This document shows positions 13,358 through 40,270 of a stretch of 43,390 nt of DNA, piece after piece. A model generated the notes under the pieces. That model saw nothing but the letters and a program-made list of their open reading frames with translations, was not told the origin of the DNA and searched no databases. How positions within the stretch are numbered: the first letter of the stretch is position 1; each line of letters starts with the position of its first letter. This DNA comes from Nitrospirota bacterium (GTDB taxonomy: Bacteria; Nitrospirota; Thermodesulfovibrionia; Thermodesulfovibrionales; JdFR-85): positions 1-43,390 of the forward strand of contig JAYWMQ010000032.1 of NCBI GenBank assembly GCA_035873375.1, written 5' to 3'. The translations under genes and the position numbers were made by a program.

Positions 13358-13805
13358 AGTTATCCCTTTTCAGGCCTTAAAATGCACGAATATCATGCCT
13401 GGGTTCTTTTAGGGGATGCCTTCCCGCTTCTTAAAAGTATAGGGGCTCAAAAGATTTTTTGTCAAGATTCAGGAGGGTTTGAGCGAATTTGTAAAAAAAG
13501 CAGCCAGGGAGGTGGGCGCCTGGCTGCCAAGGGGAGGAAGTAACCGAGAGAAAATATGCCTGTATCACTCTATTTAAGAGTTTTGTTGCGATGAGATTTA
13601 ACGAGCCGTTATTAAGAAATTACCCTTGATCCTGCTTATAGGATAGCTGAAGATTTTGAAAAAAGGATGAAGAAATTATGAATAAATAGTGAAGATTTGC
13701 CTTGATATAGAGGGATGTTGGATATAATAGAATTGTTGTTAATATGGGGTTGCATTTATGTGTGCATAAGTAGCAGAATATTTCATCACACAACAAGGAG
13801 GGATT
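13358..13805. other. 448-bp divergent intergenic region
   Basis: Lies between the leftward TPR operon and the rightward CBM48 gene. It contains a strong leftward terminator-like hairpin (separate entry) and, for the CBM48 gene, a TATAAT at 13723-13728 with a weak TTGATA 15 bases upstream. No small gene with a credible ribosome site was seen. Confidence 0.4.
13492..13527 (-). terminator. leftward intrinsic terminator or attenuator in TPR-oppDF leader
   Basis: GCAGCCAGG (13500-13508) and CCTGGCTGC (13519-13527) form a 9-bp GC-rich stem. Read on the minus strand, it is directly followed by CTTTTTTTAC, a classic intrinsic terminator tail. No minus-strand gene lies upstream of it for more than 5 kb; its only downstream gene is the TPR operon 135 bases away. 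It may therefore act as a leader attenuator. Confidence 0.55.
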
Positions 13806-22986: not shown

Positions 22987-23240
22987 GTCTGATCGCTCTG
23001 TGAAAGCAATCTTTTTGTTAAATCTATTATCTGCTCAACAGTGTTGATTTCAGGTATGTCAGAGTCTCTAATGGATATCTTGTACTTTTTTTCAAGTGCA
23101 ACGGTAAGCTCGATCGCCTTGATTGAGTCAATCTCCAGGTCATCTGGCAAGTTTGTATCAGAGGTTATTTCTTCCTTCTCAAAGCCTGAAATATCCGAGA
23201 TTATCGAAATGATTTCATCTTCAATTTTTTCAGCCAACAT
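22983..23240 (-). CDS. acyl carrier protein
   Basis: An 85-residue acyl carrier protein. The phosphopantetheine attachment serine is Ser39 in DDLEIDSIKAIEL, a DSI/K variant of the usual DSL motif, with the standard four-helix pattern around it. A strong AAGGAGGA ribosome site precedes it. The I-K after the serine and the divergent sequence suggest a dedicated pathway ACP and not the housekeeping AcpP. It is translationally coupled to the CrtI-like gene and lies just after the ketosynthase genes, so it presumably carries the growing chain. Confidence 0.92.
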   Translation of the reverse strand: MLAEKIEDEIISIISDISGFEKEEITSDTNLPDDLEIDSIKAIELTVALEKKYKISIRDSDIPEINTVEQIIDLTKRLLSQSDQT

Positions 23241-23307
23241 ATAGCTTCCTCCTTATTGAATGAATTTCTTCACTGTGCCACAGATTTCCACGAACTACAT
23301 ATATTTT

Positions 23308-23417
23308 TTTAGCCGCAGATTTACGCCGATTAGCACTGAGATTTTTTTCTTTTATTATCATAGATAAATTTTTATACTTAAACCTATCCGTGTTCATCCG
23401 CGTAAACCTGCGGCTAA
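23308..23417. mobile_element. 110-bp internally deleted derivative of GxxExxY element
   Basis: Terminal inverted repeats TTAGCCGCAGATTTACGC (from 23309) and GCGTAAACCTGCGGCTAA (ending 23416) match at 17 of 18 positions. Translated on the minus strand, the interior still encodes MNTDRFKYKN at the head and KNLSANRRKSAAKK at the tail, corresponding to both ends of the GxxExxY protein at 24626-25051 with the middle removed. Its end provides the stop codon of the ketosynthase gene (TAG at 23414-23416). It behaves like a miniature non-autonomous element. Confidence 0.78.
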
Positions 23418-24625
23418 ACATTGCTAAGTTTCTTCAAAACCAGGGAGGCGTTATTGCCTCCAAAGGCATAGGAATTATTCAAGGCTATATTAACAGTCTG
23501 CTTCCTTGCCTGATTCGGTACGCAGTCAATATCACATTCAGGGTCAAGTGTTTCAAAATTGATAGTAGGCGGTATCAGGTCGTTTTTTACAGCTAAGGCA
23601 CACGTGATGGCCTCAAGTGCAGAGGCTGCTCCCATTGTGTGGCCCAACATGGACTTAATGGAGCTTACAGGAATTTTCTTATAGAGAGGGCCGAAGACTT
23701 CTTTAATTGCTGCGCTCTCATTCTTGTCATTTGCCAGTGTGCCTGTTCCATGGGCGCTTATATAGTCCACATCTTCAACTGTAATCCCTGTTTCCAGCAA
23801 GGCCTTTTTCATGCATTCCGCAATGCCCTCTATTGATGGGGTTGTCATGTGGCTGGCGTCGCAACTGAGGCCGTATCCTAATATTTCGGCATAAATCCGG
23901 GCATTTCTTTTTAAGGCATTCTCCAGGGTTTCCAATACAAGGATTCCTGCACCTTCTGCCAGCATCATGCCTTTCCTGTTTTTATCGAATGGCTGACACC
24001 TTTCAGGAGCGACTGCCTTGAACTGGTTAAAGCCCGTGTATTCAATCCTGGACATTGGATCAGATGCCCCTGCAAACACGATGTCGGCTCTGTTAAGTTT
24101 GACCTGATCATAACCATAAGCAATGGCATAATTGCCGGCAGCACATGCTGTAGAGAACATAAAATTGGGGCCGTTGAATCTGAATTCTTTTGATATCATT
24201 GATGGTGCTGCATGTGTTGGCATTTGGTAGAATAATTCGTTGCCTATTTCCTCATTAGCAAGGATGTGGTTGTTAATCTTCTCAATGGTCGTAATAGTCC
24301 CCAATGTTGTGCCATGAGAAACACCAACCCTGAAGCTGGCTAATTTCTCGGACGTCAAAGCTGCGTCTTCTAAAGCAAGCTTTGTTGCAGCCAGTGCCAT
24401 TTGTGTGGCACGATTCATGACCTTCAACCGTTCCGCTGAAATAAAGTCTTCGGGGTTAAATTGTTTGACTTCCCCACCCATATGTGTAAAGTGTTTGGAG
24501 GTATCAAAGGATGACACAGGACTTATTCCCGATTTACCTTTCAGGAGGCTGTCCCAGAACGCATCTTTCCCGATTCCAATGGAGGATATAACGCCGATGC
24601 CTGTTATGACTACTCTGTTTTTCAT
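23414..24625 (-). CDS. 3-oxoacyl-ACP synthase, FabF/KS-alpha type
   Basis: A 403-residue condensing enzyme of the KAS II/FabF family joining malonyl-ACP to an acyl chain. The full catalytic triad is present: Cys161 in STACAAG, His292 in SAHGTGT and His329 in SMLGHTMGA. The C-terminal YAFGGNNASLVL is typical. It starts directly after the GxxExxY stop codon (TAA then ATG), with no Shine-Dalgarno sequence of its own, and its stop lies in the next element's terminal repeat. Paired with the histidine-less ketosynthase upstream, it looks like the KS-alpha of a type II system. Confidence 0.93.
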   Translation of the reverse strand: MKNRVVITGIGVISSIGIGKDAFWDSLLKGKSGISPVSSFDTSKHFTHMGGEVKQFNPEDFISAERLKVMNRATQMALAATKLALEDAALTSEKLASFRVGVSHGTTLGTITTIEKINNHILANEEIGNELFYQMPTHAAPSMISKEFRFNGPNFMFSTACAAGNYAIAYGYDQVKLNRADIVFAGASDPMSRIEYTGFNQFKAVAPERCQPFDKNRKGMMLAEGAGILVLETLENALKRNARIYAEILGYGLSCDASHMTTPSIEGIAECMKKALLETGITVEDVDYISAHGTGTLANDKNESAAIKEVFGPLYKKIPVSSIKSMLGHTMGAASALEAITCALAVKNDLIPPTINFETLDPECDIDCVPNQARKQTVNIALNNSYAFGGNNASLVLKKLSNV

Positions 24626-25051
24626 TTATTTAGCCGCAGATTTACGCAGATTGGCGCAGATATTTTTCCTCTTATTATCAAATGCAAACCTTCTAACTTC
24701 TGGTTTTCTTGCAAAATTCACTAACAATCCAACCTCAATATTTGTTGCTTTCAAGTAATTGATTATTTGGGCTTCATGTGCAGGGTCAATAGTGCGTGTT
24801 GCTTTTAGTTCAACTATTACTTTTTCGTTTATAATTAAATCCGCCTTAAACCCTCCGATGACATCTCCTCTGAAAAATACCGGGATACTTTTCTGATTCT
24901 CTACTTTCAGGCCATATCCGGTCAACACAATATACATGGCATTTTCATAGATGGATTCAAGAAATCCATCACCGAGTTCATTATAAACTTCATAAAAACT
25001 CCCAAGAATTATATCTGTGATCTCTTTATGTTTAAATACATCAGCGTTCAT
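24626..25051 (-). CDS. GxxExxY protein (PD-(D/E)XK-like)
   Basis: A 141-residue protein of the GxxExxY family: the naming motif is GFLESIY at residues 29-35. A nuclease-like core follows, with Asp71 (FKADLI) and ELK (81-83), fitting the PD-(D/E)XK fold. Biochemical function is not established. The gene fills a 444-bp element: its start codon overlaps one terminal inverted repeat, its last residues (ANLRKSAAK) are encoded by the other, and its TAA directly abuts the next gene's ATG. It interrupts the ketosynthase operon in the same orientation, so transcription can read through. Confidence 0.85.
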   Translation of the reverse strand: MNADVFKHKEITDIILGSFYEVYNELGDGFLESIYENAMYIVLTGYGLKVENQKSIPVFFRGDVIGGFKADLIINEKVIVELKATRTIDPAHEAQIINYLKATNIEVGLLVNFARKPEVRRFAFDNKRKNICANLRKSAAK

Positions 25052-25072
25052 CTGCGTAAATCTGCGGCTAAA
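24629..25072. mobile_element. GxxExxY element with perfect 23-bp terminal inverted repeats
   Basis: Bases 24629-24651 and 25050-25072 are perfect 23-bp inverted copies (TTTAGCCGCAGATTTACGCA plus GAT and its complement). The element sits exactly in the gap between the two ketosynthase genes: four bases after one stop and four before the next ATG. No transposase is encoded and I saw no clear target-site duplication. Related ends occur at 23308, 18571, 39164 and 40176. Confidence 0.8.
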
Positions 25073-25075
25073 TAT

Positions 25076-26326
25076 TTACGGTTTTTCAAGCACGACCGCT
25101 GTATTATTGCCATATGGATCAGATGATATTACAAGCGCTGTATTGATGTTCTTCTCCCTTGCCTCATTAGGTACATAATCAAGGTCACATAGAGGATCTT
25201 TTTCTGAGTAATTTATTGTGGGTGGCAGGAATCCCTTGTGAATAGCACCGACTACTGCAGATAACGACAGGGCGCCCGAGGCTGAAAATGTCTCACCTAT
25301 CATTGACTTTATTGCACTTACAGGAATGTTGTAGGCCCTTTCTCCAAAAACTTTCTTGATTGCGGTTGTATCCATTTCGTCAAGCTCTCTTGTAGAGTTA
25401 GCACTTGCGGATATATAATCAATGTCAGCAATATCCAGGGAGGCTTCACGGATGGCAAGTTTAATAGCGGTTGCAAGCCCATTGTCGGAGCTGAACCTTT
25501 TGTCGTTTTCAGAGGTAAAGGAGTTTCCATAGCCTGATACCTTTGCAAGAATGACAGCCCCTCTTCTAAGGGCGTGCTCTTTAGACTCCAGGACTAAAAG
25601 CGCAGCCCCTTCTGAAAGGATTGTGCCGCATCTTCCTGCATCAAATGGACAACAGACAGGATCTCTCCCGTCTGAGCCGGAGAGAAACCCAAGTTTGTAA
25701 AAGCCCATATATGTCTCCTCACACAGCTCTTCCACTCCCCCGGCAAGGACTGCTTCAGCCCTCTTTAACCTGATAAAATCAGCAGCATAGGTCAGGGCGT
25801 CAAGAGAGGCACAGAAGCCTGTTGAGATGGTCGTGTTAAACCCCTTTATTTTGAAGCGGATAGATACCTGGCTTGCCGGGGAGTTTATCACGGTGTTTGG
25901 AAATAGTGAAGGGTTGACATATCGAGGCCCCTCAATAAGACCCGTGCGGTCAAACTGGGAGATACTATGCAAACTCCCAAAGGTAGTTCCTACCGAAACG
26001 CCGATAGAGCGGGTGCTTATTTCATTGATATCCAGCCCGGCATCATCTATGGCGAGGCGGGCTGCTGAGGTTAAGAGTTTGGTGCTCCGGTCAAGGATTC
26101 GTAGATCCTTTTTGCCGATATAAACTTCCGGCTCAAAATCGATCACCTCTCCAGCTACATGTACATTGACCCCTGAGGTATCAAACAGGCTTATCTCCTT
26201 AAATCCAGACTTGCCCTGTCTCAAACCATCCCAGTAAAAATCTTTGCCAATGCCGATTGGTGATACAACCCCTATGCCTGTGATAACTATATCTCTTTCT
26301 GTATTATTAGTTGTCAGACTTTTCAT
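25076..26326 (-). CDS. ketosynthase-like protein lacking both catalytic histidines (KS-beta/CLF-like)
   Basis: A 416-residue member of the FabF family. The fold-defining segments are intact (DIVITGIGVVSPIG at the start, YGNNTAVVLE at the end), and the nucleophile position keeps cysteine (Cys172 in STGFCASLD). The first histidine motif HGTGT is replaced by S-A-N-S-T (Ser308), and the second, GHT, by GET (Glu345). Without both histidines normal decarboxylative condensation is not expected. Such loss is typical of chain-length factors, although those usually replace the cysteine too. It likely forms a heterodimer with the complete ketosynthase two genes downstream. Confidence 0.87.
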   Translation of the reverse strand: MKSLTTNNTERDIVITGIGVVSPIGIGKDFYWDGLRQGKSGFKEISLFDTSGVNVHVAGEVIDFEPEVYIGKKDLRILDRSTKLLTSAARLAIDDAGLDINEISTRSIGVSVGTTFGSLHSISQFDRTGLIEGPRYVNPSLFPNTVINSPASQVSIRFKIKGFNTTISTGFCASLDALTYAADFIRLKRAEAVLAGGVEELCEETYMGFYKLGFLSGSDGRDPVCCPFDAGRCGTILSEGAALLVLESKEHALRRGAVILAKVSGYGNSFTSENDKRFSSDNGLATAIKLAIREASLDIADIDYISASANSTRELDEMDTTAIKKVFGERAYNIPVSAIKSMIGETFSASGALSLSAVVGAIHKGFLPPTINYSEKDPLCDLDYVPNEAREKNINTALVISSDPYGNNTAVVLEKP

Positions 26327-40082: not shown

Positions 40083-40117
40083 GAGTGATACTGATTTGAG
40101 ATAATCTGATAGGGGAA

Positions 40118-40204
40118 TTAACCACAGAGACACAGAGAGCACAGAGCTTGAAAAGCAGAAAACAAGACTGCATTTGGCCGCAGATTTTTGCAGATAACGC
40201 AGAT
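40118..40204. repeat. fragments of both repeat families upstream of lexA
   Basis: TTAACCACAGAGACACAGAG and the next bases (40118-40146) belong to the CACAGAG family; GGCCGCAGATTTTTGCAGAT and the next bases (40176-40204) to the AGCCGCAGAT family. Neither has a matching inverted arm nearby. Confidence 0.65.
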
Positions 40205-40270
40205 ATTAAATTAAAATTCTTCTTGAAATCATGACAATAACCAACAGATGTGGTTAAACAGGTTTTTGAA

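Follow-up and report, generated by a model that had tools for sequence, protein, structure and literature searches.

The KS2/KS1 junction of a Nitrospirota genome poses the question of why a small gene of the GxxExxY family begins and ends within a pair of inverted repeats between two ketosynthase genes, and what kind of unit the gene and its repeats form. The window, meaning the whole stretch of DNA analysed here (43,390 nt), carries on its minus strand, in this order, KS2, GxxExxY, KS1, an acyl carrier protein gene and a FAD-dependent oxidoreductase gene. An initial annotation had described the GxxExxY gene as a self-contained cassette that rides at gene borders. Taken as a whole, this reading is partly supported by the present analysis; it did not include the iteron structure of the ends, the matching between protein and iterons, the gene-less copies, or the age and decay of the copy at the junction. 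The features concerned are the following:

25076-26326, minus strand: KS2, upstream ketosynthase gene; its stop codon abuts the element
25034-25074, minus strand: 5' arm, iterons AGCCGCAGAT-TTACGCAGAT-GAACGCTGAT in minus-strand reading; contains the GxxExxY ATG and first codons
24626-25051, minus strand: GxxExxY gene (P0001; PDDEXK_3, TIGR04256), 141 aa, assigned from profile matches, alignment and AlphaFold2 model
24627-24667, plus strand: 3' arm, inverted iterons AGCCGCAGAT-TTACGCAGAT-TGGCGCAGAT; codes for the GxxExxY C-terminal tail
23414-24625, minus strand: KS1, downstream ketosynthase gene; its stop codon TAG lies inside an arm of the gene-less copy
23308-23418, no strand: gene-less (MITE-like) copy; ends as in the cassette
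23238-23275, minus strand: former KS1 tail with its ribosome-binding site (GAAGAAATTCATTCAATAAGGAGG), beyond the gene-less copy
40113-40215, plus strand: single arrays of -AG iterons (ACCACAGAGACACAGAGAGCACAGAG), then of -AT iterons (GGCCGCAGATTTTTGCAGATAACGCAGAT)

The cassette, its arms and its protein

The inverted ends proposed for the cassette are exact: positions 24629-24651 and 25050-25072 form a perfect inverted pair of 23 bp. These 23-mers are the cores of longer arms of 41 nt (24627-24667 and 25034-25074), which are 85% complementary. The coincidence of gene ends and repeat ends also holds just as described, with the GxxExxY ATG overlapping the inner edge of one 23-mer, the last codons (NLRKSAAK*) encoded across the other, and the TAA (24628-24626) touching the KS1 ATG at 24625. 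The gene and its matched inverted ends make up a self-contained unit.

Each arm consists of about three iterons of 9-10 nt (CGCAGAT type) in tandem. The same plan is found with other words at other loci, such as TAGAACGCAGATGACGCAGATGCACGCAGAT, ACCACAGAGACACAGAGGACACAGAG, TCTCGCAAAGGCGCAAAGTTCGCTAAG and TTAACATGGATAAACAGGATGGACAGGAT, and the general iteron form, as judged by eye, is C-R-N-N-R-A-(T/G) with a period of 9-10 nt, some clades having shorter cores. The mean self-match of the arms is highest at lags 9 and 10, and the spacers between iterons resemble one another more within a locus than between loci (0.61 versus 0.36). In the predicted transcript, the two arms pair with each other (z -5.5), and the gene-less copy at 23308-23418 forms a hairpin as single-stranded DNA (z -6.1). 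Such pairing, in RNA and single-stranded DNA, and the spacer match within loci allow either a hairpin intermediate or RNA processing. In the genome of another genus, CACGAAG iterons also form long tandem clusters with a single orientation (G006:C14:65-444 and 13591-13746).

The family profiles PF13366 and TIGR04256 match the protein with E values of 9e-40 and 3e-38, and profile scores of 130.8 bits (cut-off 35) and 136.1 (cut-off 22) place it in the GxxExxY family. Residues G29, E32, Y35, D71, E81, K83, Q95 and Y99 are invariant or nearly so in an alignment of 91 sequences. They form the motifs G29xxE32, D71, E81xK83 and Q95xxxY99, and the succession G-x-x-E, D, E-x-K, Q-x-x-x-Y is what we take to be the RecB/Cas4/lambda-exonuclease pattern. 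A Foldseek search with the AlphaFold2 model (pLDDT 91) returned LHK-Exo, Cas4 SSO0001 and lambda exonuclease, with an E value of 1.4e-4 for LHK-Exo and Cas4 4ic1; a sequence search returned no solved structure of a relative. The only domain found in P0001 is PDDEXK_3 / GxxExxY, with no known transposase and no Y1 (HUH) domain, and a profile search gave no match to a homing-nuclease family. Judged from its motifs and modelled fold, the protein is a predicted minimal PD-(D/E)XK nuclease of the RecB/Cas4/lambda-exonuclease type.

Matched arms across genomes

Inverted ends were sought at other GxxExxY genes and were found, both across many phyla and within Nitrospirota. The sample comprised 79 GxxExxY loci in named genomes of many phyla, together with 2372 control windows from the same loci; the arm score was the best inverted match between the upstream and downstream flanks, with cut-offs at the 99% and 99.9% levels of the controls. 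Matched inverted arms exceeded the 99% level at 55 of the 79 loci, compared with 0.9% of the 2372 controls, and the 99.9% level at 43 of the 79. Within Nitrospirota, matched arms were present in 31 of the 36 best-scoring loci; a near-complete set of the loci from 396 genomes gave 85 of 98, and most of the other 13 also show short arrays by eye. Many of the genomes compared are draft MAGs. Iteron triplets in the correct inverted orientation on both sides occur at 53 of 115 loci versus 1 of 2507 control windows (p=5e-77), and triplets in the wrong orientation at 2 of 115. The count of 53 was obtained with a relaxed pattern, adopted because a strict expression (C[AG]..[AG]A[TG], three times) detected 26 of 115 and missed most variants. 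The inverted-array pattern is far beyond chance.

The arms are matched to their own cassette and to the protein it encodes. Across 13 genomes with at least three cassettes each, the opposite arm of the same cassette was the best within-genome match in 55 of 57 cases. When the iteron class (-AT or -AG) is mapped onto a tree of the protein core, it requires 2 changes across 118 loci, compared with at least 28 in 300 shuffles; within Nitrospirota alone, 2 changes are needed versus at least 13 when shuffled. The first protein trees could include arm-encoded residues; consequently, the test was redone on core columns only, with those residues excluded. Both iteron classes are represented in the source genome, where P0001 belongs with -AT iterons and a second protein (L001) with -AAG.

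The gene and the iterons also occur together at the level of whole genomes. GxxExxY is found in 26 of the 32 genomes with three or more AT iteron pairs versus 31 of the 364 others (p=2e-19, or p=1e-8 after removal of the richest family), and in 24 of the 29 genomes with at least three AG triplets versus 33 of the 367 others (p=3e-18). Over the 396 genomes, the association between iteron richness and GxxExxY has an odds ratio of 44-49, although common descent means that these genomes are not independent, a weakness from which the within-genome and tree tests are free. Nine iteron-rich genomes have no GxxExxY gene, possibly because their iterons are relics or their assemblies incomplete.

Gene-less copies, gene borders and the age of the junction copy

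Gene-less copies of 60-115 bp are dispersed in genomes with GxxExxY. In the 2.67-Mb genome from which the window derives, the 23-mer occurs 18 times with up to three mismatches, compared with no occurrence in the reversed control, and several of these occurrences are inverted pairs of 90-115 bp. One such copy, at 23308-23418, sits at the end of KS1 opposite to the cassette. Its interior reads KFIYDNKRK, comparable to RFAFDNKRK in the C-terminal part of GxxExxY, and because this remnant lies between the arms, the copy is most simply interpreted as a cassette after internal deletion. The site is empty in three relatives (G002, G003 and G005), in which KS1 ends with KKF(I/T)(Q/K/E). KS1 of the source genome ends with KKLSNV, its stop codon lying inside the element and its old tail and ribosome-binding site beyond it; the tail corresponding to 23238-23275 is intact in sister species. 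Between the old KS1 tail and the gene-less copy, at 23255-23300 of the window, there is a further half array (GTGCCACAGATTTCCACGAAC, plus strand), which makes this insertion a composite one.

A second case is provided by genus g14. One of its genomes, G099, has a single GxxExxY gene, and its gene-less copies share their outer end (ATCCGCAGAT) with its cassette. Among the copies compared in detail, two gene-less insertions of G099 occupy sites that are empty in G078 and G334, and one further copy is also present in G078 and missing from G115. G078 and G334 carry 28 and 37 gene-less iteron pairs and no GxxExxY gene, as if the gene had been lost and its relics had stayed behind, and G115 has neither the gene nor iteron pairs. 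Another gene-less copy of G099 (L186, G099:C1:978900-980300) lies within a larger dispersed repeat with the ends TTACAGAAAAAG...CTTTTTCTGTA, found at many sites of that genome; the iterons may be subterminal in this larger repeat.

At the KS2/KS1 junction itself, the genomes compared are in the following states:

Source genome: cassette intact
G004: same cassette with deletions
G005: degenerate cassette
G002: different GxxExxY gene with different ends and iterons (TAGCTACGAATTAACGC)
G003: short remnant of about 100 bp
G006 (another genus): deleted remnant
G011, G012, G013, G014 (other genera): nothing; KS2 runs straight into KS1

Empty sites in relatives were thus found at the junction, as they were at 23308-23418 and for the G099 copies. 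In a further Nitrospirota MAG (L068), a cassette lies directly before KS1, which indicates that the insertion at the junction is old. From these comparisons, the junction copy is to be regarded as an old one that is decaying in sister species, not as a fresh insertion. The closest proteins, 75-79% identical and from MAGs of Desulfobacterales and Pseudomonadota, are encoded at other sites.

The position at gene borders is general. Among elements with long flanks, a codirectional upstream stop codon lies within 15 nt of the outer edge in 27 of 53 (51%), whereas 20 of 345 control genes have one that close (6%, p=4e-15); in a larger set, such abutment was found in 67 of 130. In several elements, the arm itself includes the upstream stop codon. 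In Flavobacterium, three cassettes (L078, L083 and L098) adjoin a bioF-like gene at its 3' end, and in two of them bioD comes immediately afterwards; the upstream gene takes its stop codon from the arm (TTCTAGCC, TTTTAAGCC). A search across the junctions gave no consistent or clean target-site duplication; TTA in G002 and GAAGAAA at KS1 are possible ones, at AT-rich borders in diverged genomes. Full cassettes are seldom duplicated within one genome. GxxExxY was absent from 50,697 phage records and present in 8 of 72,556 plasmids and in two viral contigs, one of the two being an IMG/VR contig (L358). On these counts, phages, plasmids and viral contigs are not the usual vehicles of the elements. 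Of the proposal of a mobile cassette at gene borders, the border position and the empty sites stand, while its route of movement is something we infer.

Mechanism, alternatives and known systems

By analogy, the most plausible description, which we hold to be probable though by no means secure, is a single-gene element resembling REPIN-RAYT, in which a nuclease gene is bounded by its cognate inverted iterons and gene-less pairs act as satellites. In the REPIN-RAYT system, inverted doublets scattered over the genome are associated with a characteristic Y1 protein encoded by a single-copy gene (PMC3116915). The nuclease would here take the place of the Y1 transposase, and the hairpin-forming gene-less pairs of 60-115 bp would be non-autonomous satellites of the cassette. 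The nuclease would bind its own iterons, at both ends or in an extruded hairpin, and cut, so starting a movement in which host repair or replication would move or copy the element. Insertion at the 3' ends of genes, with the element supplying stop codons, would allow operons to tolerate it. That the nuclease itself moves the elements is inferred; no strand-transfer chemistry is known for a PD-(D/E)XK nuclease alone. The broader proposition appears evenly poised: GxxExxY proteins would serve as the enzymes of a class of mobile elements that spans phyla and has gone unrecognised, in which a lone nuclease is paired with its own inverted iterons, cassette and satellites spread to stop codons, and specificity co-diverges, with the S23 family behaving likewise on 7-nt arrays.

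Several other explanations have to be weighed against this description. A Y1 transposase of the RAYT/TnpAREP type encoded elsewhere could move the repeats, leaving GxxExxY as a passenger or host nuclease and the arms as mere operators. Y1_Tnp is indeed present in all 32 AT-iteron-rich genomes versus 254 of the 364 others (p=4e-5), and the source genome has seven Y1 matches. However, GxxExxY shows a far stronger association (p=2e-19), Y1 is common in iteron-free genomes, the arms lack the GTAG/CGTC tag of REPs, and a passenger would not account for the agreement between protein clade and iteron class; this explanation is therefore considered unlikely. A homing-type process, in which the nuclease cuts gene-less pairs or borders and repair copies the cassette in, would make the gene-less copies unoccupied sites. 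Unlike cassettes at the same junction in sister species and the lack of an accompanying transposase would fit such a process, but the replacing cassette in the sister species has iterons unlike those of the resident, and the copy at 23308 retains a gene remnant, as expected if it derives from a cassette by deletion. Homing thus seems quite unlikely.

The element could also act at the level of RNA, in the manner of the 23S rRNA intervening sequences (IVS): the arms would pair in the transcript, RNase III would remove the insert and render it harmless, and rare recombination would spread it. The predicted pairing (z -5.5) and the spacer match within loci (0.61 versus 0.36) agree with this, as do the inverted arms seen at S23-type genes and the excision of one S23 IVS by RNase III (PMC4990558). 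Nevertheless, such a process needs neither tandem iterons nor their correlation with protein clades, and the element stays in DNA and disperses. As the main explanation it is improbable, while RNA processing is compatible with the single-nuclease description as a secondary trait. Finally, the arms could be ordinary intergenic palindromes beside a gene, forming no unit with it, given that such repeats also occur without the gene. This is scarcely credible in view of the matched-arm frequencies relative to control windows, the matching of each arm to its own partner, and the cassette swap that brought swapped ends with it.

If the single-nuclease element is the correct description, its interest lies in what it connects. 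GxxExxY genes and CACAGAG/CGCAGAT-type repeats are widespread in environmental genomes; the open-access literature yielded no role for either and no published description of a GxxExxY/iteron system. The link between gene and repeat turns two unknowns into one testable system, which offers a small protein, for each gene a predicted cognate site that can be read from the adjacent DNA, and many natural specificity variants. Should the nuclease move the arrays, transposition-like spread would take place without a known transposase, which would be a new mechanism; should it not be the mover, the pairing of protein and repeat would still call for explanation.

Among known systems, REPIN-RAYT (TnpAREP) is similar in its genome-dispersed inverted pairs of short repeats, about 100 bp long (PMC3116915, PMC8266576, PMC8049555), its single-copy gene per repeat family and the hairpins formed by gene-less pairs. 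In contrast, the cassette protein is of the PD-(D/E)XK type with no Y1/HUH domain, the ends are arrays of iterons of about 10 nt with, by eye, no GTAG/CGTC-tagged palindrome, and the gene is bounded as a unit, at stop codons, in many phyla. The cassette is consequently not a member of that system, since its protein is not Y1 and its repeats are not tagged palindromes. Insertion sequences and MITEs share with it a single ORF in inverted ends, internally deleted gene-less derivatives and empty sites in relatives, but the cassette encodes no recombinase of the DDE, HUH or serine/tyrosine type, shows no clear target duplication and is found in few full copies per genome. The Rpn (YhgA-like) proteins belong to a different family from GxxExxY and are likewise PD-(D/E)XK nucleases once proposed as recombination drivers; early work treated them as promoters of recombination (PMC5350276), a later study reported a toxin-antitoxin function in phage defence (PMC10327210), and iteron ends do not feature in the abstracts. 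The 23S rRNA IVS with an S23 ORF is also about 430 nt long, has one small ORF and is regarded as selfish (PMC4990558). In Nitrospirota, genes of this four-helix type (PF05635, loci L329-L357) were accompanied by inverted arrays of short words in 18 of the 22 tested, and the period of these arrays is sharp, at 7 nt (self-match of 0.67 for lag 7). The S23 protein is unrelated to GxxExxY, and its arrays follow a 7-nt period as opposed to the 9-10 nt of the cassette.
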